Below, piece after piece: positions 1,214 to 29,654 of a stretch of DNA of 29,723 nt (the first letter of the stretch is position 1; each line of letters opens with the position of its first letter). Source of the stretch: a virus; the IMG/VR virus record IMGVR_UViG_3300020473_000817, positions 1-29,723 of that record, one strand, 5' to 3'. Both the position numbers and the translations under genes were made by a program. The notes below the pieces were generated by a model, which was given only the letters and a program-made list of their open reading frames with translations, was not told where the DNA came from and ran no database searches.

Positions 1214-2521
1214 CTAAACTATTAAATCTTGTATAACTTTGCCACCATCTACTATTTCTATAGGTCTATCTCCGGGAGCCATTAATTCCTTATCAGCAAC
1301 GATGCCAATTCTATTATATATTGTTGCTGCCCAGTCTTCAACAGTAAGGGCATTTTCTTCTGGTTCACTTGCGGTTGCGTTTGATGATCCGTAGACCATT
1401 CCTTTTTGTATCCCACCTCCGGCCATAACTACACTGAATACTTTAGGCCAATGGTCACGGCCAGCATTTGCGTTGATTTTTGGCGTGCGACCAAATTCAG
1501 ATGCTAAGCATACCAATGTAGAATCTAACATTCCACGATCATCTAGGTCAGCAATTAGAGCTGCAAGACCTTGATCTAGCGCGGGAACTTGTCTGCGAAT
1601 ACCATTCTCAATGTTGTCATGCATATCCCAGCCGCCATAAGTCAATGTTACAAATCTTGTACCAGCCTCAACTAATCGACGAGCTAAGAGCATCCTAGCG
1701 CCTGCGGTGTTTCTACCGTATCTATCTCTAGTAGCGGCATCTTCTTTGTTAATATCAAAGGCATCTCTGGCCTTTTCGCTAGAGATTAAGCTGTAAGCGC
1801 GGTCGTAGAAAGAGTTTACTGCGTCTAATGAATCTGATTTTTCTTTGCTGGCAAAATAGTCATTTACCGCACCAAGCATTTTACGCCTTGTTCCAAATCT
1901 GTTGTCATTCACGTTGTTGGGAAGTCTAAGGTCACGAACCTGAAAACCATCACTAGCTGGGTCAGAACCTAAGCTAAATCCAGAAAACGAACTGCTTAAA
2001 TATCCAGTACCTGCAAACTCGTTAGGCTGGTTGGGGATGCAGACGTAAGGTGGTAAGTTATGACGTGGGCCAAACTCATGCGCAACCACTGAGCCAATGG
2101 ACGGATATTGGAGTGCTGGGCTAGGTCGATAGCCAGTAAACATATTATGTGTGCCTCGTTCATGAGCTGCTTCTCCATGTGTCATGCTACGAATGATGGT
2201 CATCTTATCTGTAATCTTAGCGGTCTTAGCTAACATTTCATTCAGTCTAATTCCCGGAACTATAGTTTCAATGCTAGACATCGGGCCTCTATACTCTAGC
2301 GGGGCAAACGGCTTAGGGTCAAAAGTTTCTTGATGAGCCATGCCTCCGGGAAGATATATAAAGATTACACTCTTAGCTGGGCCTTCTACGCTTTCGTAAA
2401 ACTTTTGGTCAGCCTGAGCTTCTTGCATACGAAAGTAATCAGATAGAGAAATCCCTAGTCCTCCTAAGAATCCAACCTGCAAAAATGACCTTCGTCCTAA
2501 ATTATTTCCTCTACATTTCAT
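1214..2521 (-). CDS. DUF1501 Tat-exported protein
   Basis: Complete 435-residue DUF1501 protein. The N-terminus has a Tat signal (GRRSFLQVG at 9-17, then a Gly-rich hydrophobic stretch). Alkaline-phosphatase-superfamily-like motifs are visible in order: LPGG..QETFD (57-68), GTHNMFTGY (123-131), GGWDMH (296-301), SEFGRTP (341-347) and GRDHWP (354-359); their Asp/His/Glu residues are the likely metal ligands. The family is common among exported proteins of Planctomycetes and related bacteria, often beside cytochrome-c-type DUF1549/DUF1553 proteins, which are absent here. The start ATG shares one base with the stop of the next paralogue (TAATG), implying coupled translation. Probably a folded exoenzyme acting outside the cytoplasm; the substrate is unknown. 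Confidence 0.9.
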   Translation of the reverse strand: MKCRGNNLGRRSFLQVGFLGGLGISLSDYFRMQEAQADQKFYESVEGPAKSVIFIYLPGGMAHQETFDPKPFAPLEYRGPMSSIETIVPGIRLNEMLAKTAKITDKMTIIRSMTHGEAAHERGTHNMFTGYRPSPALQYPSIGSVVAHEFGPRHNLPPYVCIPNQPNEFAGTGYLSSSFSGFSLGSDPASDGFQVRDLRLPNNVNDNRFGTRRKMLGAVNDYFASKEKSDSLDAVNSFYDRAYSLISSEKARDAFDINKEDAATRDRYGRNTAGARMLLARRLVEAGTRFVTLTYGGWDMHDNIENGIRRQVPALDQGLAALIADLDDRGMLDSTLVCLASEFGRTPKINANAGRDHWPKVFSVVMAGGGIQKGMVYGSSNATASEPEENALTVEDWAATIYNRIGIVADKELMAPGDRPIEIVDGGKVIQDLIV

Positions 2522-17438: not shown

Positions 17439-18011
17439 CTAAGCCTCTGTAAGGCTAATAAGGAAACCTCCGTGTTCATTGTCATTTAATCTATAAGGAT
17501 ATCCAGTCATCCTCATTTCCTGTCCATCGGAAGTTACAATTTCTTTTGAAAACTTCCTATTCATCTTTAAACAAGACTCAAATTCTTGTAGGAATTCTTC
17601 TCTCTCGTCTTCATGAATGTACGTTATCCAGTCAAACCCTTTTATGTCTGTCAGTGTTTGTCCTGTCATCTTATAGAAAGGCTCATTAGTCCATACTAAC
17701 CTTCCCATATTATCCGTTTCAAATAGTGGTGTGTTGCTGTAGTGCAGAGATGCTTTGGTTCTTTGCTCTATAATTTTTTGTCTGTTCTCCATTCTGCCGC
17801 ATGTGTCATTCAAATTTAACACAGCGTCTTTTAGACTTCCACCACCATTACAAGTGATTTCTTTTTCTATTGTTGCTATAGATTTAACAACTTCATCGTG
17901 CTTATCTACAAACTTCATAGCGGGTCGTAAGACCTTGACCCAAACCCCTCCTAAAAATCCTATCAGCGTGGTTAACATTGTAAGTATAAGTGTAATGTTT
18001 TCTATGCTCAC
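17439..18011 (-). CDS. membrane-anchored PAS-domain protein
   Basis: 190 residues starting at GTG 18011; AGGGG is well spaced before it and no in-frame ATG fits. Residues 4-27 form one membrane helix, followed by a helical linker (about 30-85). A complete PAS domain occupies about 90-190 (PLFETDNMGRLVWTNEPFY, GFDWITYIHEDEREEF, EIVTSDGQEMRMTGYPYR). There is no kinase, GGDEF or HTH output domain. PAS domains sense ligands, redox or light or mediate dimerisation, so this may be a stand-alone sensor acting on a partner. The next gene is holin-like, 15 bases away. PAS call is firm; role is unknown. Confidence 0.8.
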   Translation of the reverse strand: MSIENITLILTMLTTLIGFLGGVWVKVLRPAMKFVDKHDEVVKSIATIEKEITCNGGGSLKDAVLNLNDTCGRMENRQKIIEQRTKASLHYSNTPLFETDNMGRLVWTNEPFYKMTGQTLTDIKGFDWITYIHEDEREEFLQEFESCLKMNRKFSKEIVTSDGQEMRMTGYPYRLNDNEHGGFLISLTEA

Positions 18012-18076: not shown

Positions 18077-18754
18077 TTATGTACCTTCTCGCAAATCACG
18101 ACGTTTGTAGTCATCCTGCTTAGGAGTAGGACTCCCTTGCATGTAGACAATATCGCCGGGCTTAGTACGAGTTGCAAACACATCGTCAAAAGTACCGACA
18201 GGAACAAGGCCGTCACCGCTAGGATTAACCCAACTAGCTGTATTGCCTGCGCCAGTACCCTTTGTTCTATAACCGAACAAGCCACTTCCTGCTGGTTCTA
18301 ACACATCAATAGATGTGTCCGAGTAAGCTCCAGCTCTCTTGGTTGACTTAGATGGATTAGTTACATTGATACCTGCGTATTCTCTTCCAACTACCTGAAG
18401 TGCTGTATTGCCGCTTCCAGAAATTGTCGTAGAAACTCCTCTGATAATAAACTGTGGGTCAGTAGCTGTTCTGTTCGTTGGCTTTGGTGTAAAAGCCATT
18501 GAAGTTCCAACTCCAGCCGTAGCTGATGTAATACCAACGCTATCAGTAAACATTGGGTGGCTATCTACTCTACCACCAGTGTCAGTGTCTATAGCCACGA
18601 CTTTTGAACCATATTCGCTGCCAGTTGCTAATTCGTTTAGACCTTTGGCGCTTAAAGCGCTTCCAGTCACCGCATCAGCCGCTTGCATACCAACAATAGT
18701 ACCATTATTTTTGTTCTCTGCCCCACCGGCAGATTTCGCTGCTTGAGTAGCCAT
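18077..18754 (-). CDS. probable virion structural protein, 225 aa
   Basis: Ala/Gly/Ser/Thr-rich, cysteine-free protein with few long helices and many predicted beta segments (VSTTISGSGNTALQVVGREY, GDIVYMQG). It has the strongest ribosome site in the window (AGGAGGTAG), a TATAAT box in its leader and its own UUCG terminator, so it is likely a highly expressed single-gene unit. These traits suit a capsid decoration, head-fibre or whisker-like protein. The C-terminus is basic and disordered (KQDDYKRRDLREG). No family is recognised; a non-virion role is not excluded. Confidence 0.6.
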   Translation of the reverse strand: MATQAAKSAGGAENKNNGTIVGMQAADAVTGSALSAKGLNELATGSEYGSKVVAIDTDTGGRVDSHPMFTDSVGITSATAGVGTSMAFTPKPTNRTATDPQFIIRGVSTTISGSGNTALQVVGREYAGINVTNPSKSTKRAGAYSDTSIDVLEPAGSGLFGYRTKGTGAGNTASWVNPSGDGLVPVGTFDDVFATRTKPGDIVYMQGSPTPKQDDYKRRDLREGT

Positions 18755-19750: not shown

Positions 19751-20122
19751 CTAATCTAATACTTCTGATGGACTTATTAAAGGTTCGTCTTCATCTCCTT
19801 CATCTTTTGTGGAGTCAGCAAATACTGACGCTAACTTAGTTATAAGTAGCAGATAAAGATCTGTCCTATCCTCCTCTAAGAGGCCATTCCTGAGCATTTC
19901 CAATGTGTCGTGGCTATAAAGCCCTGTATTTATCCCGCTTAGTAGCGCCGCCATCATGATTGTGGCTGCATCGTCAAATTCTTTCATTTCAACATCAACA
20001 AAGGCTTGCCCTTCTGATGTCATATAATATGTGACCGCAGCTACTACATCAGGCGTGTCGTCCTTGATCTCTTCCTTTTTAGGTTGAACATCAGGCTTTT
20101 GCTTCTTAAAAAAATCAAACAT
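19751..20122 (-). CDS. hypothetical acidic protein, 123 aa
   Basis: Starts with MFDFFKKQKP and a charged linker, then a helical core with hydrophobic helices (AATIMMAALLSGINTGLYSH, LYLLLITKLASVFA) that look like a soluble helical bundle rather than membrane spans. Ends in a strongly acidic tail (DEGDEDEPLISPSEVLD). Overlaps the preceding glycosyltransferase by 8 bases. No family recognised. Confidence 0.75.
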   Translation of the reverse strand: MFDFFKKQKPDVQPKKEEIKDDTPDVVAAVTYYMTSEGQAFVDVEMKEFDDAATIMMAALLSGINTGLYSHDTLEMLRNGLLEEDRTDLYLLLITKLASVFADSTKDEGDEDEPLISPSEVLD

Positions 20123-21185
20123 TTATATCCAACGCTTTCATTATTGACTCAGCGGTGTTTCTCCAGCTAAATTTCTTGGCTGTTGCGACACCCTCTTGGT
20201 TGGTTCTTACCTTGTTCTTGTGTACATATCTCATGTGTTCTATAGTGGCTTCTACTTGATCTTCACCAAAATTAGCCCAATTACCCTGACCATGAAACCA
20301 CTTCCCGTCAACAGCTTCCTCTGTGCTATTAATCGGGATAAGGAACGAGTTTTCTTTAGTACAAAATTCAGTGTGAGCTGAAAAATCTGTAATAATTATT
20401 GGCTTACCACAAGACATCATTTCTAAAGCCTCTAGGTTCCAGCCCTCTGCCCTTGAAGGGAATACTCCACAATCAACAGTGGACATTATATTATACACCT
20501 CTGCTTGTGTTTCTACACGATCCAAGATTCTTATTTTATCCCCCATTGGGGTGCTTTTGTACTTGTCAATCCACTTCATCTTTTCTTCACCTTGAACAAA
20601 GGGGTTCTCACACATCATCCAAAGCTCAACATTGTCTGACGGGGTAAATGCTTTGTTGAATATGTCGGGTAAGACATCGTGTCCCTTCCTAACCTCCCAC
20701 TTGCCGCAGTTAAAAAATATTGTACCATCTCTATCCTCGTTGTCAAGAGAAACTTCTGGAAAAAGATTGGTATCAACACCAAGAGGTGCTATATGTACGT
20801 CGTTGCTAGAAATATTTACTTGGTCTATAATGATGTCTTTAGCCCATTGCGAGCATACAAAAACTTTATCAGGATGGCTTAGGTGATGCTTTTCCATGTC
20901 ATTAAACTTGTCCAACTCAAATATTGGGAAACCAGCCTTTATACTATTACCAACAAATTGAGACATGTCATGTTGATGCCATATTCTTAAACAAGGCGCG
21001 TCATAGTTGGGCATCTTAGAATTTCTGATTGTCTCTGTGAGTATGTCGTAGTCGTCCTGACTGGTCACTGTGGGTTGCCCAATGGGAAACAATGAGACAG
21101 GCGCTATCTTGTCAAGCTCCTTAACAATGTTGAGTCCAGCTATTCCATACCCTAACTGATTAATTGGAGATATAATATTTAACAT
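20115..21185 (-). CDS. GT-B glycosyltransferase (GT4-like)
   Basis: 356 residues. The N-terminal half has a Gly-rich start (NQLGYGIAGLNIVKEL). The C-terminal Rossmann half has PLGVDTNLFPE, FFNCGKWEVRKGHDVL and the donor-binding SRAEGWNLEALEMMSCGKPII with the E-x7-E signature. These are marks of retaining nucleotide-sugar glycosyltransferases of the GT4 type. The donor could be GDP-mannose given the mannose enzymes at 26.4-29.7 kb, but this is inference. Works in the cytoplasm on a polymer, lipid, protein or DNA acceptor. Starts at the stop of a second glycosyltransferase (1-base overlap), so the pair probably act in sequence. Confidence 0.88.
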   Translation of the reverse strand: MLNIISPINQLGYGIAGLNIVKELDKIAPVSLFPIGQPTVTSQDDYDILTETIRNSKMPNYDAPCLRIWHQHDMSQFVGNSIKAGFPIFELDKFNDMEKHHLSHPDKVFVCSQWAKDIIIDQVNISSNDVHIAPLGVDTNLFPEVSLDNEDRDGTIFFNCGKWEVRKGHDVLPDIFNKAFTPSDNVELWMMCENPFVQGEEKMKWIDKYKSTPMGDKIRILDRVETQAEVYNIMSTVDCGVFPSRAEGWNLEALEMMSCGKPIIITDFSAHTEFCTKENSFLIPINSTEEAVDGKWFHGQGNWANFGEDQVEATIEHMRYVHKNKVRTNQEGVATAKKFSWRNTAESIMKALDINV

Positions 21186-22093
21186 TAGTATTTTCCTGAA
21201 TATATGGTTGGTGTGTACAAGGCAATCATACTTGGATTCATAAATATACTGCTACCTCTCTTCTTCATCTCATTGTGGAAGTAAGCCCATTCATTAACAA
21301 CAGAGCCGTCTTCATTTTGTACAGCATCAAATTTACAATCTATTGCTTCTTGGTATTTGTATATTCCTAGCCCATTGAAATTCGAGTTAACTTCAACTAT
21401 TTCTTCGCCCCTCTCAAAACACAACTCATTTATTTCAGCCGAGTCAGGAACATCTGTCATTTTGGCATCAATGTCTCTCCAAGCCCAAGTGTCATAGAAG
21501 AGTGGCTTGTACTCGGAGAAGGTTGTTCCGTCGGAGCCAACATAAGTTGCGTCAACATATTCTAGGCCATTGGCTGTTATTGCAGACCAATTATCATATG
21601 AGAAGCTGTGACGTATACCATCATAAGACCAGCCCCCTTCTAAGTCCAAATCTATAACAATTATATAGTCTGCTGGAAAAAACTTATTAAGAAGTCTCAC
21701 TCCTTCAAAAGATATATTTCTTAGACCAGCTAAGTATCTGGGCCTGTCAAGTTCTCTTGTTTTACTGAACATAGGCGTGCCGGTTATCTCTTGCGCTAGT
21801 GTTGTCTTGTTGTCGTTCTGAAAGTATTTTCTAAGAGCTTGACTTGTGCCATCATTTGAATCGTTTTCATAAATTAATATTCTATAGTCGTTGAACAGCT
21901 CACCCGTCTTTTTAAGTCTAGCGACTGTATGTTTTAGTACAGGCATTATGTTTCTACATAGACCAGTTATTATAACATTTTTAGAAGAAGCAACAGATGC
22001 GCCTTGAGCTACTCTTCTAAGATAGTCATTGCTGTCTTGAGCTGCAAATAATTCTTCTGGAAAACGTTCGTGTAGAAAATCTTTAGTGTTCAT
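21185..22093 (-). CDS. glycosyltransferase, CAP59-like
   Basis: 302 residues. The pattern VIITGLCRNIMPVLKHTVARL, YENDSNDGTSQALRKYF, and IIVIDLDLEGGWSYDG (a DxD-type metal site) resembles GT-A-like glycosyltransferases of the CAP59/alpha-mannosyltransferase group. The C-terminus (FNGLGIYKYQEAI, EWAYFHNEMKKRG) fits an acceptor-binding part. If the CAP59 resemblance holds, mannose transfer is likely, in line with the phosphomannomutase and isomerase genes. AGGAG is 11 bases before the ATG. Confidence 0.72.
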   Translation of the reverse strand: MNTKDFLHERFPEELFAAQDSNDYLRRVAQGASVASSKNVIITGLCRNIMPVLKHTVARLKKTGELFNDYRILIYENDSNDGTSQALRKYFQNDNKTTLAQEITGTPMFSKTRELDRPRYLAGLRNISFEGVRLLNKFFPADYIIVIDLDLEGGWSYDGIRHSFSYDNWSAITANGLEYVDATYVGSDGTTFSEYKPLFYDTWAWRDIDAKMTDVPDSAEINELCFERGEEIVEVNSNFNGLGIYKYQEAIDCKFDAVQNEDGSVVNEWAYFHNEMKKRGSSIFMNPSMIALYTPTIYSGKY

Positions 22094-22107
22094 GTTGCGC
22101 TAGACTC

Positions 22108-22620
22108 CTAATTAGTCTTTTTCATAGCGATCACTAGAAAATCCTGCACTGTTGTAATGTCATCAGTCAGACTGTTCCTAACAATATTCTTTGACTCTGT
22201 TTTATTATAGCCTAAAGCCACTAAAGCGTCCACACAATCTTGCTGTAAAGGGTGTACTTTAGGGTTTGATTTTTTGGTCACTTGAGGTGTTGAACTCAAT
22301 TCTTTGACCATCTTTTTGAGTTCTTTAACTTGCTTCTCTAGACTTTTAACTCTAGGATTTACTGTTGCTCTCTTTGTCGCAGGCTTTGGAGCAGGCTGCA
22401 CAGGCTCTGGGTCATTAAAGAAGTAGAAGGCTGCTGGATCGCCAGTCTCCTCGTAAGCACAGCCAGCGAAGAAGTCGCTGTCAGCAGTAGTTTCATAATC
22501 CCAGCCGTCTTGTAGAGATATATGTTTCGCTTCGCTCATGCCTTTCATGAAGGCAGACATAAGGATGCCTACAAATATAATTGCTGGTAATACTACTATT
22601 AGAGATAACATAAAAAGCAC
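22108..22620 (-). CDS. membrane-anchored coiled-coil protein with RuvA-C/UBA-like tail
   Basis: 170 residues. The N-terminal membrane helix (1-26) is followed by an acidic linker, a Pro/Ala-rich stretch, a coiled coil (about 90-110, VKSLEKQVKELKKMVKEL) and a C-terminal three-helix bundle (about 122-168, CVDALVALGYNKTESKNIV). The last part strongly recalls RuvA domain III and UBA folds, which bind protein partners. It is the first gene after a consensus promoter, so it is well expressed early. Function unknown; it may tether a cytoplasmic protein to the membrane. Confidence 0.75.
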   Translation of the reverse strand: MLFMLSLIVVLPAIIFVGILMSAFMKGMSEAKHISLQDGWDYETTADSDFFAGCAYEETGDPAAFYFFNDPEPVQPAPKPATKRATVNPRVKSLEKQVKELKKMVKELSSTPQVTKKSNPKVHPLQQDCVDALVALGYNKTESKNIVRNSLTDDITTVQDFLVIAMKKTN

Positions 22621-22646
22621 CTTACGGGTTCAGAAAGTTTCTGTTT

Positions 22647-22674
22647 ATTATAACATCAATCCTACCGCTGTCAA
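22647..22674 (-). promoter_or_regulatory. near-perfect sigma70 promoter with extended -10
   Basis: Minus-strand TTGACA (22674-22669), 16-base spacer and TGTTATAAT (perfect TATAAT at 22652-22647 with an upstream TG). Both hexamers match consensus, so host polymerase should use it. The predicted start near 22640 gives a 20-base leader before the 170-aa gene and its AAGGTG site. Confidence 0.85.
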
Positions 22675-22800
22675 GCGATAACTTACCTTTTCTTCCCCCG
22701 TTTCGGCTTTTATTTTCTATTTCTGTCGGCTTGGGTCAGTAAATCCGATGTCAAGACCACCTTTAATGTCTTATATCGGCCATTTTGATCCTTACGCATC

Positions 22801-22833
22801 ACTTATTTTTTATAAAATTTTTCATGTCAATAA
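22801..22833. repeat. copy B of the 31-33 base AT-rich repeat
   Basis: Plus-strand ACTTATTTTTTATAAAATTT with TTCATGTCAATAA; matches 17146-17176 except for two inserted bases and a few changes. It covers the stop codon of the methyltransferase fusion gene. The rest of the 22621-22821 gap holds only the promoter and no convincing gene. Confidence 0.6.
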
Positions 22834-24255
22834 CCTCATGTCGTCAACGCATAGGACTGGTCTACCGGTCACTTGGTTTATTTCAATAGCCTGAAGCATA
22901 TCACTTTCAATAAATAATTTTGCGGACTTGTCTTCCATGTATTTTATAGCCTTCCATCTGCCGAAGCCAATCTGCTGCCTTTCTTGATGGGTTTCAGCTG
23001 GCATCATACATAGTTCTCCATACTCCACTCCGTACCTTGAGAGCCACTCCTCGGTTTCCTCTCTATATTTTTCCATCCTTGCCGTAACTATTTTTTTAAC
23101 TTTATATTTGGGTAGGTATAACGGCTTGACTTCACGGATGAACTCTAGATATTTGGATTCTACAGAGTCGTCTTGGCAGTTTTCGCAGAGAACTCCATCC
23201 ATGTCAAATAGACAATGTTTTGATATAATATCTCTTGCAAAATTCCACTCAAACGTATGAAAAAAAGATGGAAAAACCTGATAGTTGGTGTCCAATAAAT
23301 TGCTTTGTGTTTGGCTGCAATATAGTGCGCCATATTTTATATTCAAGTGACTGTGGTTTTTGAGAAGTTCCCTAGTCTCCCTGATTGTGTGTCCACTCCA
23401 AGACGTGTCATCTACAACTAATATGCTGGGTTTTTCAGGGCTAGTGTTTATTGGCCTAGATGTTTTAAGTCTGAAGTAGTCAGCGTTCCCTTTGATGACA
23501 TTTTCTATGGGGACTATTGGTATATTTAAATGGTGACCGATAACCCCAGCTATAAAGCACCCAGACCTCGGTAGTCCGCAAACGTGGGTAACAGGGAAGG
23601 TTATTTCCTTGCACCAGTTTTTAATGTCAACAACTGCATCTGCATAAGACTTAAAGATAACATCGCTGTCAGTCATTATCTCCGACGATTCTTTTTGCGA
23701 AAGTAAAATTTCGTATGTTCCTTCGCCTACCTTTTTTTCTAGGTCTGAATCGCTACTCTCGATAGTGTGTTTAAAAGGGGAAGATTTCAACACCTTAAAA
23801 ACATTAGTTCTATTCATGTCGTCCATATAGGGTCTTCCTATGACATATAAGTTATCGGTAATCCTAGCTAGATTTTCGAGTGTGTCTTTCAATTTTTTGG
23901 CATCACAGAAGTGCTGAAAACAAAAAAGAGCAAATACTATATCAACCTTCTTATTAAACCCTGCTATGTCTGGGACTACCTCAACGCCTTTTAGGTATTC
24001 CTCCCCTTGAAACTCCACACATTTTTCCAATACGGCAGGTAGATCATATGCGTAAAGCTTTTTTGATATAGCTTTGAAGTATGGGAAGTTTCGACCAATC
24101 CCACACCCAAAATCTAGGACGGAATCAAACTTCCTGTCTATAAGCATAGGTTTTGATATTGGTAATGTTTCTACAGCCCTGTGTCCTTCGCAGAATAGAT
24201 TGACAAGGGCGCCTTTATCCTCTACTTTTTTTACTAGATCGTTCCAGTTAACCAT
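22822..24255 (-). CDS. methyltransferase-phosphoribosyltransferase-HAD fusion
   Basis: 477 residues from ATG 24255; an in-frame GTG at 24276 would add seven residues. Using numbering from the GTG: a SAM-methyltransferase fold with DFGCGIG (55-61) and a later FCFQHF segment; a phosphoribosyltransferase with CGLPRSGC (233-240) and the PRPP-binding VVDDTSWSGHT (287-297); and a HAD domain with DMDG (358-361), VTAR (397-400) and ESD (457-459). It may build or recycle a nucleotide-like compound, with methylation, ribose-phosphate transfer and dephosphorylation linked in one chain. It precedes the operon at 22.6 kb and follows SSB and other small genes. Domain calls are firm; the substrate is unknown. 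Confidence 0.82.
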   Translation of the reverse strand: MVNWNDLVKKVEDKGALVNLFCEGHRAVETLPISKPMLIDRKFDSVLDFGCGIGRNFPYFKAISKKLYAYDLPAVLEKCVEFQGEEYLKGVEVVPDIAGFNKKVDIVFALFCFQHFCDAKKLKDTLENLARITDNLYVIGRPYMDDMNRTNVFKVLKSSPFKHTIESSDSDLEKKVGEGTYEILLSQKESSEIMTDSDVIFKSYADAVVDIKNWCKEITFPVTHVCGLPRSGCFIAGVIGHHLNIPIVPIENVIKGNADYFRLKTSRPINTSPEKPSILVVDDTSWSGHTIRETRELLKNHSHLNIKYGALYCSQTQSNLLDTNYQVFPSFFHTFEWNFARDIISKHCLFDMDGVLCENCQDDSVESKYLEFIREVKPLYLPKYKVKKIVTARMEKYREETEEWLSRYGVEYGELCMMPAETHQERQQIGFGRWKAIKYMEDKSAKLFIESDMLQAIEINQVTGRPVLCVDDMRLLT

Positions 24256-24481
24256 TAGTTTTCCCGACTGAGACACCTCTCTTAGCTGAATATCTATTTG
24301 GGTCTGCTAAGCCACTGTCTAGTTTTCTTTTTTCTGTTATATAAAAACCTCTTTCGTCTTCGCACTTCACTTTTCCACCCTCTAGTTCCTCAACTACCAT
24401 GTCTGCGTGTGAGCCAAACCAGCTCTTGGTGGTAATTGAAGTTCCCGTCACATGCTTGCGACCTACTCTTGCTCTAGCCAT
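24248..24481 (-). CDS. hypothetical protein, 77 aa
   Basis: Small basic protein with an N-terminal Arg/Lys-rich start (MARARVGRKHVTG) and a central acidic SH3-like stretch (MVVEELEGGKVKCEDERGFYI). The stop overlaps the ATG of the fusion gene (AATGGTTAA), implying coupling. No family recognised. Confidence 0.72.
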   Translation of the reverse strand: MARARVGRKHVTGTSITTKSWFGSHADMVVEELEGGKVKCEDERGFYITEKRKLDSGLADPNRYSAKRGVSVGKTNG

Positions 24482-24483
24482 TT

Positions 24484-24789
24484 TTAATCCTTCAAATATT
24501 TAGGAACCAATTCTTCCAGTTTTTCAATTACTATTGACTTCATTGCTATACCAATCAGCGGTAGCTTTAGCCTCGCTTCAACATCCTTCTCTGCAAGTAG
24601 GATCTCACCAGAGAGCTTAAAACCCCCTATACTAAAGTTGAAGTACACGATATTTTTACCTTCTTTAAACTGTAGGTCAGAACCAAGAAATTCATCTTCT
24701 ACTAGCTCCTCAAGTGCTATACGGACTCTACTTGCTAGCTTGGCTCTATCGTTTATATCGTGGCTAAATTTTACTACCGCTGTAGGCAT
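24484..24789 (-). CDS. protein resembling the polyhydroxyalkanoic acid system family
   Basis: 101 residues with AGGAG before the ATG. The layout (N-terminal MPTAVVKFSH, a helix, then FNFSIGGFKLSGEILLAEKD, and ARLKLPLIGIAMKSIVIEKL) follows small bacterial proteins annotated as polyhydroxyalkanoic acid system proteins, whose fold has a beta sheet and a long closing helix. There is no PHA synthase or phasin nearby, so the fold may be reused for something else. Lies 9 bases after ssb. The relation is judged by eye. Confidence 0.45.
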   Translation of the reverse strand: MPTAVVKFSHDINDRAKLASRVRIALEELVEDEFLGSDLQFKEGKNIVYFNFSIGGFKLSGEILLAEKDVEARLKLPLIGIAMKSIVIEKLEELVPKYLKD

Positions 24790-24798
24790 AACTCACTC

Positions 24799-25158
24799 CT
24801 AGAATGGAGCTGCTTCTTCTTCTGTTTGCTGAATGCTTACAGAAGATTGGCCGGGATTTGGGCCGAGAGAAATCTCATCAGCCATAACACAAACTGAATT
24901 GCGAGGATTGCCATTTTTATCCTCATACTCATCGACCTTGATCTTGCCCTGAACGGAAACCAATCTTCCCTTCGTCAAGTGGTCATTAAGACCTTCAGCC
25001 ATTTTACCGAAACACAAAACGTTTAAGAAAAGTGTTTCATCGTTTCTTCGGTCATTTACTGCTAACCGAAATTTACTCATGGAGGTGCCTTTTTTAGTGA
25101 CGCTTTGTTCTGCGTCTTTTGTCAAACGGCCACAACCTAACCAAAAATTAACATTCAT
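24799..25158 (-). CDS. ssb: bacterial-type single-stranded DNA-binding protein
   Basis: 119 residues. OB-fold features GRLTKDAEQSV, SKFRLAVNDR, LFLNVLCFGKMAE and GRLVSVQGKIKVDEYEDKNG are those of bacterial SSB. The tail ends EEEAAPF, like the acidic DDDIPF peptide by which bacterial SSB recruits repair and replication proteins. It is shorter than E. coli SSB (178 aa) because the linker is cut down. In T4 this job is done by unrelated gp32, so this phage differs there. Coats single strands for UvsX, helicase and primase. Confidence 0.92.
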   Translation of the reverse strand: MNVNFWLGCGRLTKDAEQSVTKKGTSMSKFRLAVNDRRNDETLFLNVLCFGKMAEGLNDHLTKGRLVSVQGKIKVDEYEDKNGNPRNSVCVMADEISLGPNPGQSSVSIQQTEEEAAPF

Positions 25159-25159
25159 A

Positions 25160-25483
25160 TTAAAGCTCCAATGCTGAACGTACCTTACCTCTTACTACTT
25201 GGCTATGACCTCGATTAGAGTGGTTTGTCGTAGCCTGATACAAATTTTCTGAAAAAGTTTTTGACAAGCCCAATGCTCGCCCTGCTCTCAATGTGTCACG
25301 CTTTGTAGTTCCATAGGAACCATGACCTTCTGCGAAGGCTACAGCGGTGACTGGGTTAAAATTAATACCTTTTGCTTTACCTCGTCTACCTTCTCCGGTG
25401 ATTACGTTCTTAGCGTTAATCGAGAATTGGTAGGTAGATGAAGACAAAGAAGAAAGGCTTTCGTAAAATTCATTGATACCCAT
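25160..25483 (-). CDS. hypothetical basic protein, 107 aa
   Basis: Ser-rich N-terminus (YESLSSLSSSTYQFSINAKN) and a Gly/Arg/His-rich remainder (GEGRRGKAKG, NHSNRGHSQVVRGKVR). The protein is strongly basic with few acidic residues, and could bind DNA or RNA. It ends one base before the ssb start region, with AGGAG before its own ATG, so both are co-expressed. No family recognised. Confidence 0.72.
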   Translation of the reverse strand: MGINEFYESLSSLSSSTYQFSINAKNVITGEGRRGKAKGINFNPVTAVAFAEGHGSYGTTKRDTLRAGRALGLSKTFSENLYQATTNHSNRGHSQVVRGKVRSALEL

Positions 25484-25491
25484 ATCAACTC

Positions 25492-25704
25492 CTACTTAAA
25501 AGTGCTTCCAAAGTTTACCGGCTCTGAGGTCGGATTTGCTTTTTCTGCGGGTTTAGTTTGATTAAGCTCTTCAATGCACTCTTGAAGATAGGCACTTAAT
25601 CTAGTAATCTCTTGTTCGATCTGAGCTTGTTGCGCTCTGAACTCATCAATTTTTGCCTGCACATTCTTAAGATGTGCTTCGGCCATGTCGTTTAGTGAAA
25701 CCAT
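25492..25704 (-). CDS. coiled-coil protein, 70 aa
   Basis: Start chosen at ATG 25704 because AGGAG lies 7-8 bases before it; the longer frame up to 25788 would run over another small gene and a promoter-like region. Residues 5-50 form one continuous coiled coil (KNVQAKIDEFRAQQAQIEQE) and the C-terminus is a Pro/Thr-rich tail. Looks like a small oligomerising accessory protein. Function unknown. Confidence 0.75.
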   Translation of the reverse strand: MVSLNDMAEAHLKNVQAKIDEFRAQQAQIEQEITRLSAYLQECIEELNQTKPAEKANPTSEPVNFGSTFK

Positions 25705-25731
25705 TTTAAACTCCTGTTTTGTGTCTGTTAT

Positions 25732-25757
25732 ATTATAGTCAATACCGAGGCTCGGTA
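25732..25757 (-). promoter_or_regulatory. palindromic operator candidate beside a TATAAT box
   Basis: TACCGAG (25743-25749), one G, CTCGGTA (25751-25757) is a perfect 7+7 inverted repeat. Immediately downstream on the minus strand is TATAAT (25737-25732), and the palindrome would cover the -35 and spacer region. There is no U-run after it, so it looks like an operator rather than a terminator. Confidence 0.45.
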
Positions 25758-25768
25758 CACTCAAAATC

Positions 25769-25921
25769 TTATTTTTTTCTAAATTCATACCAAAGTAAAC
25801 CTAGATTAGCTAGGCCGTAAGAAAACCACATCAGGGCATGTGGGTAATCCTTGTCTTTTAGGCACGATGCACATGTCACCCAGTACAGCAATGTTGTTGT
25901 TCCTATAGCGTAAACTGCCAT
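25769..25921 (-). CDS. small two-helix membrane protein, 50 aa
   Basis: The frame starts at ATG 25921, sharing a base with the stop of the deoxyribosyltransferase-like gene (TGATG), and ends in TAA at 25769. It has two hydrophobic helices (about 3-20 and 29-44, with a CASC motif between them) and a basic C-terminus (YEFRKK). Translational coupling and a clean membrane profile support a real gene. Function unknown. Confidence 0.65.
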   Translation of the reverse strand: MAVYAIGTTTLLYWVTCASCLKDKDYPHALMWFSYGLANLGLLWYEFRKK

Positions 25922-26472
25922 CAGCTCATCCCCATCTTATCCTTGTTGAAAAAGAACCATCTCTTGTAGTGGTCAACCTCTCCCTTGTGTTTATGTACAT
26001 AAGCTAAGTAGCCCATTAAATTCTCCATCGAATCAAATATGTGTTGATGAGGGAGCATAAAGAATAGCCAGTTCGGAGCTGCGGCCTTGCCCTGCTGGCA
26101 CCAGATAAGAACAGGTTTCTTCTGACTATTAGCTACAGCGATCTCTTCATAAGTACCACAGGCGTGTACATCTGTATCTACGCTTACGATCAAGAAGTCT
26201 GATATGTCAACACATCTCAAGTCTAAGGTTCGTATAACAGAGTAGTCATCTCTTATCTGTTGGAAGTTGCCCTCTACCTTTAATCTTTCGATACGCTCTC
26301 TCGTTCCCTTGTCCTCTTTGCCGATCTCTGACGGTTTATCGCAAGGGTTTAATACTATTACTCCCATTCTTTCAAGTAGCGGTGTGATTTTGTCTCTCCA
26401 TCCAGCGCCTCCATCGGGAACTCTGTCCATAGCGCCAGCCAAGTAAGTTCTCATGCCTTTAAGTCTGTTCAT
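25921..26472 (-). CDS. nucleoside 2-deoxyribosyltransferase-like protein
   Basis: 183 residues. TYLAGAMDRV near the N-terminus, VDISDFLIVSVDTD (about 88-101) and HACGTYEEIAVANSQKKPVLI (about 103-123) follow the pattern of nucleoside 2-deoxyribosyltransferases, with E109/E110 the likely catalytic Glu. These enzymes swap bases between deoxynucleosides or hydrolyse them. In phages the fold serves nucleotide salvage, and sometimes NAD- or nucleotide-degrading roles. Fits with dNMP kinase, dut and nrdAB. The start overlaps the phosphomannomutase gene by 14 bases; GAGGCAGG precedes it. Confidence 0.75.
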   Translation of the reverse strand: MNRLKGMRTYLAGAMDRVPDGGAGWRDKITPLLERMGVIVLNPCDKPSEIGKEDKGTRERIERLKVEGNFQQIRDDYSVIRTLDLRCVDISDFLIVSVDTDVHACGTYEEIAVANSQKKPVLIWCQQGKAAAPNWLFFMLPHQHIFDSMENLMGYLAYVHKHKGEVDHYKRWFFFNKDKMGMS

Positions 26473-27169
26473 AACCTGCCTCTAAAAATTGCCTAGTCTC
26501 TTCAAAATTCTTAACCCAAAATGCGTGAAACACATCTAGTTTACTGTATATTGGATAATCATTTCCATTCTCCTGACATGCGTCACCGAAGAAAAACACT
26601 TCTCCGTCCATGTCCTCTAGCACTTGTGATTTGTCTTTACCTTTGGGGTATATGTCTATACTTATTTGTCCACCAATGGCAAAATCTATATCTGGATAAT
26701 CAGCGGACAGTTTCTCAACTATATACTCTCTTTCTTTCCACTGTTGATCCCATTCGTGATAATATTCTCTTTGTTCTTGTGTGCAGTCACGGCCTATGGT
26801 TGTCATATTTGCCATACCAATCCGCTTTTCTATATTTCTTTCGGCTGTTCCATTCCATACGCTCTTTCGGATTTGGTGCTTAACAGACTGCTCTAGCCCT
26901 CCAGAAAGCTCCCATTCGCTCTGTTTAATAAGCTGACCGTCAATATATAACTGATTTCCACAGTTTTGATAAGAACCGTCAACGGAGTGCCAAATGGCAA
27001 GTCCGACCTGCTCTATAGTTTTTTGTTTGTCTGATCCAGTTACTAGAAAGACCTTTTCGTCCTCACTTTTGTTACGCAACATTCTCATGAAAAAATGTTT
27101 GAATTCATTTACCATTGGCTGACGATGAGGCGTTAGTGTTCCATCTACATCAAATAAAAAGTTTTTCAT
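26459..27169 (-). CDS. phosphomannomutase of the eukaryotic PMM2 type (HAD fold)
   Basis: 236 residues. Clear PMM2 pattern: nucleophile LFDVDGTLTPHRQ (D7, D9), VTGSDKQK, KRIGMANMTTIGRDCTQEQR, FAIGGQISIDIYPKGKDKSQ and FFGDACQENGNDYPIY. Human PMM2 shows the same blocks in the same order. The enzyme converts mannose-6-phosphate to mannose-1-phosphate, the step before GDP-mannose. Most bacteria use an unrelated alpha-D-phosphohexomutase. It is likely cytoplasmic and serves the two glycosyltransferases nearby together with the cupin isomerase. Start overlaps the stop of a tiny zinc protein (ATGA). Confidence 0.9.
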   Translation of the reverse strand: MKNFLFDVDGTLTPHRQPMVNEFKHFFMRMLRNKSEDEKVFLVTGSDKQKTIEQVGLAIWHSVDGSYQNCGNQLYIDGQLIKQSEWELSGGLEQSVKHQIRKSVWNGTAERNIEKRIGMANMTTIGRDCTQEQREYYHEWDQQWKEREYIVEKLSADYPDIDFAIGGQISIDIYPKGKDKSQVLEDMDGEVFFFGDACQENGNDYPIYSKLDVFHAFWVKNFEETRQFLEAGYEQT

Positions 27170-27333
27170 AGCTTATCAGTCCTAAATCCGTCACAGTTTA
27201 TTTCTATAAGTCCACAGCCCTCGCAGAGAACCATTACAGCTTCGTCTTCTTTGCATAGCCCAACAAAATCATTTTTGTCGGCATACTCTTCTCCAAATAG
27301 TTCATAGGTACAACTGAAACAAAAGTCTGCCAT
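27166..27333 (-). CDS. tiny cysteine zinc-binding protein, 55 aa
   Basis: The frame MADFCFSCTYELFG... has C5xxC8, C27, C37xxC40 and C47. The ending VLCEGCGLIEINCDG is characteristic of a small phage and bacterial hypothetical family. The stop overlaps the phosphomannomutase start by three bases, and the start lies one base after the stop of the preceding small gene. Zinc-ribbon fold is likely; role unknown. Confidence 0.8.
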   Translation of the reverse strand: MADFCFSCTYELFGEEYADKNDFVGLCKEDEAVMVLCEGCGLIEINCDGFRTDKL

Positions 27334-27334
27334 G

Positions 27335-27481
27335 TTAATAGTCCTTGCAATCTTCTTTTAGCTGATCTAAATTTCTGGATAAACATTTTATAGCCTTATT
27401 AATATTGTAGCCCAAGTATAAAGCCCAAGCCGCTGAAGTTCCTGTTATAGTCCATAAAATAATTGCTATAGTATCCATCAT
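27335..27481 (-). CDS. single-span membrane protein, 48 aa
   Basis: Start placed at the ATG pair 27481/27478 because AAAGGA directly precedes it; the longer frame back to 27553 has no site and would run up to the tRNA gene. One hydrophobic helix (about 2-23, TIAIILWTITGTSAAWALYL) and a charged cytoplasmic tail. Function unknown. Confidence 0.6.
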   Translation of the reverse strand: MMDTIAIILWTITGTSAAWALYLGYNINKAIKCLSRNLDQLKEDCKDY

Positions 27482-27554
27482 ATTTTCCTTTATTATAAAC
27501 CTCAAATGGCTACGACTTTTTTGCGACATATCCGCATACATCAGATAATACAAG

Positions 27555-27628
27555 TAGACTTGGTAGGACTCGAACCTACGACAAAGGGATTATGAGTCCC
27601 CTGCTCTAACCAACTGAGCTACAAGTCC
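27555..27628 (-). tRNA. tRNA with CAU anticodon (Met or lysidine-type Ile)
   Basis: 74 bases folding as a full cloverleaf: acceptor GGACTTG with CAAGTCT, D-arm AGCTCAGTTGGTTAGAGC, anticodon loop CTCATAA in a GGGGA/TCCCT stem, T-arm GTAGG TTCGAGT CCTAC. No CCA is encoded. The AGG..GACTCATAATC anticodon arm looks as much like tRNA-Ile2 (CAU, read after lysidine change) as elongator tRNA-Met. Confidence 0.92.
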
Positions 27629-27633
27629 ATAAA

Positions 27634-27645
27634 GCCCGCGCAGGG
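27634..27645. repeat. GC-rich inverted repeat, left copy
   Basis: GCCCGCGCAGGG, whose reverse complement occurs at 28102-28113. The two copies flank hsp20 and each lies next to a tRNA gene. The sequence can also fold on itself (GCCC/GGGC). Confidence 0.6.
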
Positions 27646-27651
27646 CGTTAA

Positions 27652-28047
27652 TTAGTTAATTGTAATTACTTTCGGCTGCTTTTCTTCTGGCACAACTTGT
27701 TCCAGAGCTACCGTTAGTAAACCGTCTTTGAAGTCTGCTGAGATAACCTCAACATACTCTGCAAGGCTAAAGCTCGTCTTAAACTTGCGTTTAGCGATGC
27801 CTCTGTGAAGATGTTGCCTATCCTCGTTATCAGGCTCACCTGAGCCTTCAATGGATAGAGTCGCATCCTCAACGACCACTTTTATGTCATCCTTGCCGTA
27901 GCCAGCTAAAGCTACCTCGACAAGTGTTTTCTCTCCATCCCTAATGACATTATAGGGTGGAAAGTTTTGTTTACCGCTATTAAGACGACGATGTAAATCC
28001 TCAAACCCAATAGCCCTATCAAAAAAGTGTTGCATTAAACTATTCAT
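27652..28047 (-). CDS. hsp20: Hsp20/IbpA-type small heat-shock protein
   Basis: 131 residues. The short N-terminus (HFFDRAIGFEDLHRRL) is followed by the alpha-crystallin domain (about 30-118: YNVIRDGEKTLVEVALAGYG, LSIEGSG, FSLAEYVEVISADFKDGLL) and a short tail PKVITIN with an I-x-I motif used for oligomer assembly. It is an ATP-independent holdase protecting unfolded proteins. Hsp20 is common in T4-like marine cyanophages. AAAGGAG precedes the ATG. It is embedded between two tRNA genes. Confidence 0.92.
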   Translation of the reverse strand: MNSLMQHFFDRAIGFEDLHRRLNSGKQNFPPYNVIRDGEKTLVEVALAGYGKDDIKVVVEDATLSIEGSGEPDNEDRQHLHRGIAKRKFKTSFSLAEYVEVISADFKDGLLTVALEQVVPEEKQPKVITIN

Positions 28048-28101
28048 AATAATTCTCCTTTCTAAGCGAGAAATATGCCACCCGATAAGGCGTGGCGTTT
28101 A

Positions 28102-28113
28102 CCCTGCGCGGGC
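28102..28113. repeat. GC-rich inverted repeat, right copy
   Basis: CCCTGCGCGGGC, the inverse of 27634-27645. It lies just 3 bases after the tRNA-Glu 3' end in transcription order. Confidence 0.6.
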
Positions 28114-28116
28114 AAG

Positions 28117-28188
28117 TGACCTCTAGGGGAATCGAACCCCTATTGCCAGCGTGAAAAGCTGGAGTCCTGACCGTTAGACGAAGAGGCC
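28117..28188 (-). tRNA. tRNA-Glu (UUC)
   Basis: 72-base cloverleaf: acceptor GGCCTCT with AGAGGTC, anticodon stem CCAGC/GCTGG holding TTTTCAC (anticodon TTC), T-arm AGGGG TTCGATT CCCCT. No encoded CCA; the trailing bases CTTG are the same as those after the CAU tRNA. Confidence 0.95.
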
Positions 28189-28193
28189 AAGTC

Positions 28194-28406
28194 CTACTTA
28201 TAGTAGCCTTTCTTATCCATACTATCTACTCTTGGTTTTACAGTATGTTTATAATAATATTTGAATTGCTTATACAAATCTTTGATCTGCTTGAACGCTT
28301 CCTCTTCCGTTATCTTTCCACCTTGCTCTAAATCACATATGATGGACATATGTATATTAAAAGCTCTGAATGGATCACGATACTGCTCAAATATTATTTC
28401 ATCCAT
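28194..28406 (-). CDS. hypothetical protein, 70 aa
   Basis: Helical, soluble, rich in Tyr and Lys, with a possible helix-loop-helix (GGKITEEEAFKQIKDLYKQF). TAGGA precedes the ATG. The stop is only 5 bases before tRNA-Glu, so gene and tRNA share a transcript. No family recognised. Confidence 0.72.
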   Translation of the reverse strand: MDEIIFEQYRDPFRAFNIHMSIICDLEQGGKITEEEAFKQIKDLYKQFKYYYKHTVKPRVDSMDKKGYYK

Positions 28407-28629
28407 TATGGAATCCTATTTTGTTTTTGCTTGCGTTTGAATCAATAACTTCCAAAATATCATCTTCTGAAAACCAGTCTCTAACCCTAGCCTCACCAGA
28501 CCACCAAGCACATTCATACTGAATTACGTTTGATGCGTGGATTGCCACAGTAACAATCTTAGCAATTAGATCGTTATCATTCAATTTTACCTTTGTTCCT
28601 ACTTCATAAATATTCAATGTGTTAGTCAT
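28399..28629 (-). CDS. small SH3/KOW-like protein, 76 aa
   Basis: A beta-rich core IYEVGTKVKLNDNDLIAKIV and VIQYECAWWSGEARVRDWF looks like a small barrel of the KOW/SH3 type found in many phage hypotheticals. No cysteine pairs beyond C40. Overlaps the upstream coiled-coil gene by 8 bases and the downstream gene by 8. Role unknown. Confidence 0.7.
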   Translation of the reverse strand: MTNTLNIYEVGTKVKLNDNDLIAKIVTVAIHASNVIQYECAWWSGEARVRDWFSEDDILEVIDSNASKNKIGFHNG

Positions 28630-28780
28630 TCTTCAACTCCTTAATTTTTTTTCTCAACTTGGCAACAGTTGCCTCAAGCTCTTTTTGTCTCTTCCATTGT
28701 TGTTGATACCTAAACTCCCATTTTCTTTCTGCTTTTGTGAGCTTGGCTTCAAATTCATTTTTGTATAAATCGTCTGACAT
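28622..28780 (-). CDS. small coiled-coil protein, 52 aa
   Basis: The frame starts at ATG 28780 with AGGAGGAG before it and a base shared with the stop of the Lar-like gene (TGATG). It is almost wholly one charged helix with heptads (FRYQQQWKRQKELEATVAKL). Probably an oligomeric accessory; function unknown. Confidence 0.75.
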   Translation of the reverse strand: MSDDLYKNEFEAKLTKAERKWEFRYQQQWKRQKELEATVAKLRKKIKELKND

Positions 28781-29046
28781 CAACTCCTCCTGTTCCATTT
28801 ATTTCTAGCTTCTACCCAATCTTCGGCAGACCCACTGGCTCCACCACAGTCATCACACTCGTACCAATAAAGCCCTATACTACCCAATGCTTCTGCTTGT
28901 GGATGCCCGCCGCAGAATGGGCAAGACAGTAGTGTATCTTCTGTGAATTCTACTACGTCTATATCGTGTTCGCCACATCTGATACACCAGATCGGCTTGT
29001 TATCTACGTCTACAACACGGTTGCAACATTTTATTAAATATTTCAT
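28780..29046 (-). CDS. Lar-like zinc-ribbon protein
   Basis: 88 residues. The C-terminal half (LLSCPFCGGHPQAEAL, WYECDDCGGASGS, EARNKWNRRS) matches the Lar restriction-alleviation family, which helps phage or prophage DNA escape type I restriction, though many members are only zinc ribbons of unknown use. The N-terminal 27 residues add a separate zinc module, C7C8 and C21xxC24. No clear ribosome site precedes it; translation probably couples to the overlapping membrane protein gene. Confidence 0.7.
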   Translation of the reverse strand: MKYLIKCCNRVVDVDNKPIWCIRCGEHDIDVVEFTEDTLLSCPFCGGHPQAEALGSIGLYWYECDDCGGASGSAEDWVEARNKWNRRS

Positions 29047-29170
29047 CTGTTAGCCACGCATATATTAAAAACATTATAATGGAAGTTAAAGGTGGAAATT
29101 GAATAGTAAGTAGTAGAGCGAGTACAAATATGTCACGGGTTCTGAGACTGGGTATTTTACGCCCTTCCAT
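29000..29170 (-). CDS. small membrane protein overlapping its neighbours, 56 aa
   Basis: Start taken as ATG 29170 with GAGG 6 bases before it; it sits inside the end of the cupin gene. Residues about 13-42 hold two short hydrophobic segments (IFVLALLLTIQFPPLTSI, IMFLIYAWL), and the C-terminus is basic (CCRRR). It overlaps the Lar-like gene by 47 bases in another frame. The overlap makes it less certain, but the ribosome site and membrane profile support it. Confidence 0.5.
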   Translation of the reverse strand: MEGRKIPSLRTRDIFVLALLLTIQFPPLTSIIMFLIYAWLTDEIFNKMLQPCCRRR

Positions 29171-29654
29171 AGTCATCCTCAATGCGAATAATATCATCCT
29201 CAATACACTCACCACTTTGAACTTCTACAAAGATAAGCGGTTCATCCGTTTCGTTTGTTATCCTGTGAACCTCTAGCCTTCCTATATTGATGGTATCTCC
29301 TTCTTCAACAGGCCACTCTGACGCACCAACCTGCATTAACCCTTGCCCCTTGATGATCTTCCACCACTCGCTTCTATGGCGATGCAACTGCAAGCTGAGC
29401 CTGCTGTTCGGGTTGACAGTTATCTTTTTTATCTTTACGTTAGGCTCGTCTAAAAGAATCTTAAAATTACCCCACTTTCTAGTCTCTTCAGTATCATCTC
29501 CAGAATGGCCTGTTTCGGGTACCAAGAATACTAAATCTTCCTTATCTACTTCTTCAAGGATAGGGGATAACCTACCACATTGCCGACAGTGGGTGTCATT
29601 GAATTTTTCAGATACTATGTATCCACAGCACTGATATTTATATTGCTTCATCAT
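29157..29654 (-). CDS. cupin of the mannose-6-phosphate isomerase type with N-terminal zinc module
   Basis: 165 residues. The N-terminal zinc module (C9C10, C23xxC26) precedes a cupin: RKWGNFKILLDEPNVKIKKI, LSLQLHRHRSEWWKIIKGQG, GRLEVHRITN, PLIFVEVQSGE and EDDIIRIEDDYGR. These blocks are those of the C-terminal isomerase domain of bifunctional mannose-1-phosphate guanylyltransferase/mannose-6-phosphate isomerase, which turns fructose-6-phosphate into mannose-6-phosphate using a metal. The guanylyltransferase half is absent. It pairs with the phosphomannomutase at 26.5-27.2 kb. GAGGT precedes the ATG. Confidence 0.87.
   Translation of the reverse strand: MMKQYKYQCCGYIVSEKFNDTHCRQCGRLSPILEEVDKEDLVFLVPETGHSGDDTEETRKWGNFKILLDEPNVKIKKITVNPNSRLSLQLHRHRSEWWKIIKGQGLMQVGASEWPVEEGDTINIGRLEVHRITNETDEPLIFVEVQSGECIEDDIIRIEDDYGRA

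Follow-up and report, generated by a model that had tools for sequence, protein, structure and literature searches.

A virus-encoded isomerase and PMM2-type phosphomannomutase predicted to supply mannose-1-phosphate for phage glycans

Mannose-1-phosphate in phages: described systems and the present locus

Phosphomannomutases of bacteria usually belong to PF02878, a different family from that of the eukaryotic PMM2-type enzymes, and members of the PMM2 family are also able to use glucose phosphates. Among phages, an isomerase (MPI) together with a GDP-fucose gene set has been published for cyanophage S-SCSM1, and in type II isomerases a Ser-x-Gln-x-His motif and the next Arg are reported to be catalytically required (PMC9602691). 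Residue roles in PMM2 were taken from PMC4263888. Our literature search, with subscription papers mostly outside its reach, found no paper on a phage phosphomannomutase. A phage isomerase accompanied by GDP-fucose genes is thus already known; at the centre of the locus described below is an unannotated phage phosphomannomutase family.

We analyzed a stretch of viral DNA of 29,723 nucleotides (hereafter the window), for which a sequence-only reading had proposed a mannose activation and transfer route encoded by an isomerase, a phosphomannomutase and two adjacent glycosyltransferases. All four ORFs are real at the coordinates given below, lie on the minus strand, and have families borne out by Pfam matches.

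The mannose-6-phosphate isomerase (PMI; 29157..29654, minus strand) has the type II cupin domain only, without a pyrophosphorylase domain, and matches PF01050 with an E-value of 1.3e-24 (87 bits, cut-off 23.6) over positions 11-116 of 116. Its Ser87-x-Gln89-x-His91-x-x-Arg94-x-Glu96 motif, His130 and C-terminal EDDIIR...YGR align with E. coli ManC, where SVQMHHHR corresponds to S87-L-Q89-L-H91-R-H-R94. The N-terminal segment, absent from the earlier description, is zinc-ribbon-like (CC...CRQC).

The phosphomannomutase (PMM; 26459..27169, minus strand) is of the eukaryotic PMM2/HAD type and matches PF03332 with an E-value of 1.4e-28 (100.7 bits, cut-off 22.4). The solved chains closest to it are all phosphomannomutases, with E-values down to 7e-31, compared with 1e-7 for alpha-PGM. 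It retains DxDGTLT..R, E-x-R-x-G-M, IGR, QxxR, GGQISxD and FFGD..GND, and its segments FDVDGTLTPHR, IGR, QEQR and GGQISIDIYPKGKDK were aligned with the Leishmania and other PMMs. The HAD nucleophile motif, the Arg equivalents of PMM2 R21/R134/R141 and the canonical GGxISxD sugar loop are all present. The protein belongs to phrog_29277, a family entered in PHROGs as of unknown function and having at least 545 relatives in IMG/VR.

The four mannose-route genes do not form a single operon: 2.0 kb separates the PMI from the PMM, and the PMM is about 4.4 kb from the glycosyltransferase pair, with SSB and other genes intervening. A nucleoside 2-deoxyribosyltransferase-like gene (25921..26472, minus strand; PF05014 E 1.6e-6, slightly below the cut-off) overlaps the PMM end by 14 bases and is 72-96% identical in five close relatives. 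A methyltransferase, phosphoribosyltransferase and HAD fusion (22822..24276) lies on the minus strand like the glycosyltransferase pair; in its place the relative G001 has genes for radical-SAM, GT29 and CMP-sugar synthetase proteins. Elsewhere among the relatives, a HIGH-motif (RfaE2/TagD-like) nucleotidyltransferase gene overlaps the PMI in G012 and G013 and the PMM in G018, and a MobA-like nucleotidyltransferase occurs in intact form in G008 and in degenerate form in G001 and G005.

Pairing of isomerase and mutase, and later steps

The isomerase and the mutase form a recurrent pair in the wider virus set: both were placed in 18 contigs, and in 17 of these the two genes share a strand and are separated by 0.15-5.5 kb. 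A PMI was detected in 15 of the 24 contigs with a GGxISxD mutase loop and in none of the 22 with the variant GGxTGxD loop, the two groups having equal median contig size. The Fisher p of 3e-6 for PMI against loop type overstates independence, because the distribution of PMI tracks PMM ancestry (5 changes observed, 14.2 expected from shuffling). Distinct PMM lineages show the pairing, and the PMI involved comes in two architectures, one having the ribbon and one lacking it.

Three relatives (G008, G018 and G019) encode a GDP-mannose 4,6-dehydratase (gmd; 44-47% identity to E. coli Gmd) and a GDP-fucose synthase (fcl; 33-35%), and GDP-mannose is therefore the likely product of the pathway. One of them, G008, falls in the same PMM clade as the window and also has a borderline GT11 fucosyltransferase-like gene. 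Together with family membership, active-site residues and the recurrent pairing, these relatives reaching GDP-fucose uphold the predicted conversion of fructose-6-phosphate to mannose-1-phosphate.

The sequence-only reading had named the GDP-mannose pyrophosphorylase as the one missing enzyme, to be sought elsewhere in the genome or in the host. No PF00483 domain (NTP_transferase, sugar-1-phosphate nucleotidyltransferase) was detected in the 29.7-kb record or in G001, G005, G010 and G013, all of which are fragments. Matches to PF00483 in G015, G018 and G019 were rejected as the missing enzyme, being an RmlA fragment and bPGM-like HAD and nucleotidyltransferase fusions. The guanylyltransferase domain (TIGR01479 positions ~1-353) is present in all 13 planctomycete genomes searched, and the mannose-1-phosphate guanylyltransferase of the predicted host is monofunctional. 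The missing activity is probably supplied by the host, and we consider it improbable that NDP-mannose would instead be made without a classical pyrophosphorylase by a phage RfaE2/TagD-like or MobA-like nucleotidyltransferase.

As a host marker we used a DUF1501 protein (1214..2521, minus strand; PF07394 E 3e-116), which shares 85-87% identity with genes from four marine Pirellulaceae/Planctomycetaceae MAGs. The similarity of this cargo points to marine Pirellulaceae, and this marine virus probably infects planctomycete bacteria, as judged from the one cargo gene. Host phosphohexomutases (PF02878) occur in all 13 genomes, and a PMM2-type mutase in none of the 13. Seven of the genomes have a type I PMI, whereas the six closest by DUF1501 do not, and in those six no intact isomerase of type II or of the PGI/PMI type was recognized either. 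The weak PF01050 matches read in two host genomes (G055 and G056) were rejected as PMI, being small general cupins, and a further one in G060 is a C-terminal PMI remnant with stops upstream. Most of the host genomes are MAGs whose completeness is not known, so missing host genes are weak evidence.

Glycosyltransferases and alternative readings

The GT4 glycosyltransferase (20115..21185, minus strand; PF13692 E 4.4e-15, also PF00534) is a core gene of the virus group, with orthologues of 48-63% identity in 11 other contigs. Its AlphaFold2 model (pLDDT 90) has a two-domain GT-B fold that matches MshA, BshA and B736L with Z of about 30, and its top folds and sequence comparison give mixed donors. 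The GT69/CAP59-like GT-A glycosyltransferase (21185..22093, minus strand; PF11735 E 1.4e-9, 38.4 bits, cut-off 28.8; E 7.7e-11 for the G047 homologue) is a lineage-specific accessory, confined among the contigs examined to G000, G001, G046 and G047. A search of the phage collection with the GT69 protein returned no match, IMG/VR scans with one and two GT69 sequences returned only the G001 relative, and the G046 and G047 copies surfaced through the isomerase scan. Both aspartates of its DxD motif (D148-L-D150) are invariant in four homologues. The GT69 AlphaFold2 model, built from 4 sequences, has a pLDDT of 52, is poor outside the GT-A core and matches only the GT-A core of mixed-donor enzymes. 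UDP-Glc, UDP-GlcNAc and GDP-Man enzymes are all among the top folds of the two models. The GT69 gene of a sister phage has as neighbors a GT29 of the sialyltransferase family and a CMP-sugar synthetase, which suggests a general glycan locus and not one dedicated to mannosylation. Of the route first proposed, the steps to mannose-1-phosphate are supported.

From these results we favor, at a probability of roughly 0.6, a route in which phage PMI and PMM, a host guanylyltransferase and phage transferases would build a virion or envelope glycan. It is possible, if doubtful, that the isomerase and mutase act as predicted but GT69 and GT4 of the window rely on different donors, with the mannose route serving transferases elsewhere in the genome. 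Most phages with both PMM and PMI lack GT69, G001 and G005 have a GT29 and a cytidylyltransferase, and G001 has a large glycan island, all of which fits such a division; yet the larger window-group contigs that were read do contain GT4, and for the protein tied as its best fold match, chlorovirus B736L (3oy2), calorimetry showed the best binding with GDP-mannose (PMC4691112). The mutase might also mainly make glucose-1-phosphate for the dTDP- and UDP-sugars of a phage glycan island, with the isomerase incidental. An RmlA fragment lies near the PMM in G015, G001 carries an RmlB-type dehydratase among other nucleotide-sugar genes, glucose phosphates are ligands of PMM2 (PMC4263888), and the L. 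lactis alpha-PGM also matches the PMM. However, that match is far weaker than those to the phosphomannomutases, the PMI-paired mutases retain the canonical GGxISxD loop, and three relatives have gmd and fcl, so that we regard this function as unlikely.

Quite unlikely, in our view, is a catabolic auxiliary metabolic set in which the isomerase runs in reverse and turns mannose-6-phosphate into fructose-6-phosphate that would go toward nucleotides and reducing power. The same role was proposed for the cyanophage isomerase (PMC9602691), and the phage does have ribonucleotide reductase and other nucleotide genes; but catabolism does not need the mutase that is so regularly the isomerase's close neighbor (17 of 18 contigs), and the same contigs carry glycosyltransferases and gmd/fcl. 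DNA had also been named as a possible target of the transferases. T4-like phages glycosylate hydroxymethylcytosine, and SSB and replication genes are close to the GT4 gene. The 12 relatives searched, all fragments and including contigs of 105 and 122 kb, nevertheless have no thymidylate-synthase-family hydroxymethylase (PF00303), and by its model the GT4 protein is similar to GT4 enzymes for polysaccharides and small molecules, which makes glycosylation of modified phage bases very improbable.

Proposed route and comparison with known systems

In the favored route, the phage cupin isomerase would convert fructose-6-phosphate to mannose-6-phosphate and the PMM2-type mutase would convert this to mannose-1-phosphate, both steps as predicted from family and residues. 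The monofunctional guanylyltransferase of the predicted planctomycete host, present in the candidate hosts, may then form GDP-mannose. This, or a derivative such as the GDP-fucose of the relatives, would feed the core GT4 and the lineage-specific GT69, and the glycan would be built on a virion protein or the cell envelope. Phage enzymes would thereby make mannose-1-phosphate and a host enzyme would activate it; should the isomerase really be missing from the closest hosts, the phage would give the cell a route that it does not otherwise have. For phrog_29277, a family common in marine phages and so far without an assigned function, the analysis proposes a likely role; it also finds a eukaryote-type phosphomannomutase paired with an isomerase in phages, and points to viruses of marine Pirellulaceae.

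The cryptococcal CAP59/CMT1 mannosyltransferases (PF11735, GT69) share the DxD with the window GT69, which matches the profile over residues 41-259, but they are distant from it, and its fold model is too poor for a donor to be assigned. B736L, which Foldseek ranks as the top fold match of GT4 and VIA-align as joint first, is likewise a virus-encoded retaining GT-B enzyme, but it is only 16-18% identical and its virus infects algae. The C-terminal isomerase domain of E. coli ManC/CpsB is 34% identical to the window PMI over the cupin and has the same signature residues, whereas the window PMI lacks the guanylyltransferase domain and has the added ribbon. Eukaryotic PMM2/Sec53 (PF03332) shares the HAD fold family and the catalytic and substrate-arginine motifs with the window PMM, which is phage-encoded. 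S-SCSM1 is, like the virus of the window, a marine phage with a single-domain type II isomerase and glycosyltransferases; its host is a cyanobacterium, and the ribbon is a feature of the window PMI. S-SCSM1 has the GDP-mannose 4,6-dehydratase and GDP-fucose synthase that the window itself lacks, whereas no PMM2-type mutase was detected in S-SCSM1 and the window has one.

Predicted mannose genes encoded in the window

The window, a linear IMG/VR virus fragment of 29.7 kb, encodes on its minus strand all four genes proposed by the sequence-only reading to activate and transfer mannose. The mannose-6-phosphate isomerase (PMI) cupin (29157-29654), the PMM2-type phosphomannomutase (PMM; 26459-27169) and the GT4 transferase (20115-21185) pass their Pfam cut-offs by wide margins, and the CAP59/GT69-like transferase (21185-22093) clears its own by a smaller one (38.4 bits, cut-off 28.8). 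The PMI lacks a guanylyltransferase domain and has, at its N-terminus, an additional ribbon-like segment (CC...CRQC); no PF00483-family sugar-1-phosphate nucleotidyltransferase was found within the 29.7 kb, in agreement with the earlier view that the GDP-mannose pyrophosphorylase is missing there. Also on the minus strand are genes for a PAS-domain protein that appears to have a membrane segment at its N-terminus (17439-18011), an Hsp20 chaperone (27652-28047) and a Lar-like restriction-alleviation protein (28780-29046).

Aligned with E. coli ManC, the PMI retains the Ser-x-Gln-x-His...Arg motif reported to be catalytic in type I/II isomerases (PMC9602691), the Glu that follows it, the His of the second motif and, at the C-terminus, EDDIIR...YGR. 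Solved phosphomannomutases align with the PMM end to end (E 7e-31); its nucleophile motif and GGQISxD loop are retained, and arginines matching human PMM2 R21, R134 and R141, whose roles are described in PMC4263888, are all present. We infer from sequence that both enzymes are active.

Pairing of PMI and PMM among relatives

The PMM gene is common among marine phages, with at least 545 phage relatives in a wider scan; its PHROGs entry (phrog_29277) is of unknown function. In G001, a related 77.6-kb contig, identity to the window is 91% for PMM, 86% for PMI, 85% for GT69 and 63% for GT4. Among 46 contigs recruited through PMM alone, a PF01050 PMI above cut-off was present in 15 of 24 with the canonical GGxISxD PMM loop versus 0 of 22 with GGxTGxD; median contig sizes were equal, and the Fisher p of 3e-6 overstates independence because contigs with PMI group together on the PMM tree (5 changes versus 14.2 in shuffles). 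PMI nevertheless occurs in more than one PMM lineage and has two architectures, and in 17 of the 18 contigs where both were placed the two genes share a strand, 0.15 to 5.5 kb apart. PMI was not found on the 58.9-kb fragment G008, which belongs to the window's own clade.

The GGxTGxD loop marks a second phage PMM subfamily (loci L006, L007 and L013-L015 and 22 of the 46 contigs), which occurs in cyanophages and T4-like contigs, was never accompanied by PMI in the contigs checked, and possibly acts on a different substrate.

Predicted host and likely fate of the product

The window DUF1501 gene at 1214-2521 (minus strand) shares 85-87% identity with genes from marine Pirellulaceae/Planctomycetaceae MAGs, and in two MAGs whose loci were read these genes have a chromosomal context; together these findings suggest a planctomycete host. 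The window gene is the middle of three tandem minus-strand DUF1501 genes (3-791, cut by the contig end; 1214-2521; 2521-3828), two of which are 96-99% identical in G001, versus 64-89% for nearby replication genes. The pyrophosphorylase, which it had been proposed to seek in the host, has a candidate counterpart in planctomycetes: the first (guanylyltransferase) domain of TIGR01479 was matched in all 13 planctomycete genomes searched, in a frame of ~355-390 residues in most and split over two contigs in one. PF02878 phosphohexomutases were likewise found in 13/13, and a PMM2-type mutase in 0/13. A type I isomerase was found in none of the six genomes nearest by DUF1501 and in 7/7 of the others, and searches of those six for a type II or PGI/PMI-type isomerase found none that was intact; one of them, a Pirellulales MAG (L226, ~1500-1600, minus strand), retains the final ~30 codons of a PF01050 isomerase, preceded by stops, as a remnant. 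Isomerase absence from the six is a lead, not a result, because the genomes are mostly MAGs of unestablished completeness.

Three relatives (G008, G018 and G019) encode a GDP-mannose 4,6-dehydratase (gmd; 44-47% identity to E. coli Gmd) and a GDP-L-fucose synthase (fcl; 33-35%), joined in G008 by a borderline match to GT11 fucosyltransferases, which makes GDP-mannose the likely sink in this virus group. HIGH-motif RfaE2/TagD-like nucleotidyltransferase genes (L121:10397-10852, L123:7613-8053, L113:6160-6558, L105:2224-2724 and L124:15857-16309) overlap PMI in G012 and G013, overlap PMM in G018, and share a contig with the pathway genes in G005 and G010. A MobA-like nucleotidyltransferase within the glycan island has a glycine-rich GSGSR loop in G008 (L139:17128-17844), degenerate in G005 (L107:15231-16004) and G001 (L010:1991-2767).

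Putative glycosylation genes of variable content

GT4 is present in every larger contig of the window's group that was read, and GT69 in four contigs only. As modelled (pLDDT 90), the GT4 protein has a GT-B architecture and lies equally near several GT4 structures; these include UDP-sugar enzymes and chlorovirus B736L, for which GDP-mannose is the best ligand (PMC4691112), so the model does not single out a donor. It is quite possible that the window transferases use donors other than GDP-mannose. In G001, the stretch that separates GT69 from its neighbour (L011:16552-19294) holds genes for radical-SAM, GT29 sialyltransferase-family and CMP-sugar synthetase proteins in place of the window's methyltransferase-phosphoribosyltransferase-HAD (polynucleotide-kinase-phosphatase-like) fusion (22822-24276, minus strand). 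Further nucleotide-sugar enzymes and transferases form a glycan island in G001. The fusion is common to the related contigs G006, G046 and G047; in G005 the GT29 and CMP-sugar synthetase genes are sited elsewhere (L107:939-2352). The locus is accordingly a plastic glycan programme rather than a dedicated mannosylation cassette.

A glucose-1-phosphate role for PMM, or a catabolic role such as that proposed for the cyanophage isomerase, fits the pairing of PMI with PMM and the presence of gmd/fcl less well than supply of GDP-mannose does. Phage DNA, considered as the glycosylated target, is disfavoured, since no PF00303-family hydroxymethylase was found in the 12 relatives searched, all fragments. 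In the window's own gene cluster, a fast-evolving Gly/Ser/Thr-rich protein of 225 aa (18077-18754, minus strand; ~45% identity in G001), with no family match, may be part of the virion and accept the glycan.

The idea of a phage isomerase accompanying GDP-fucose genes was already known from cyanophage S-SCSM1, where a type II enzyme of one domain occurs together with gmd, fcl and fucosyltransferases (PMC9602691); no published phage phosphomannomutase was found among the open-access papers searched. The new elements are the pairing of PMI with a PMM2-type mutase, the ribbon-fused isomerase, the recurrence of the pair and the link to predicted planctomycete hosts.
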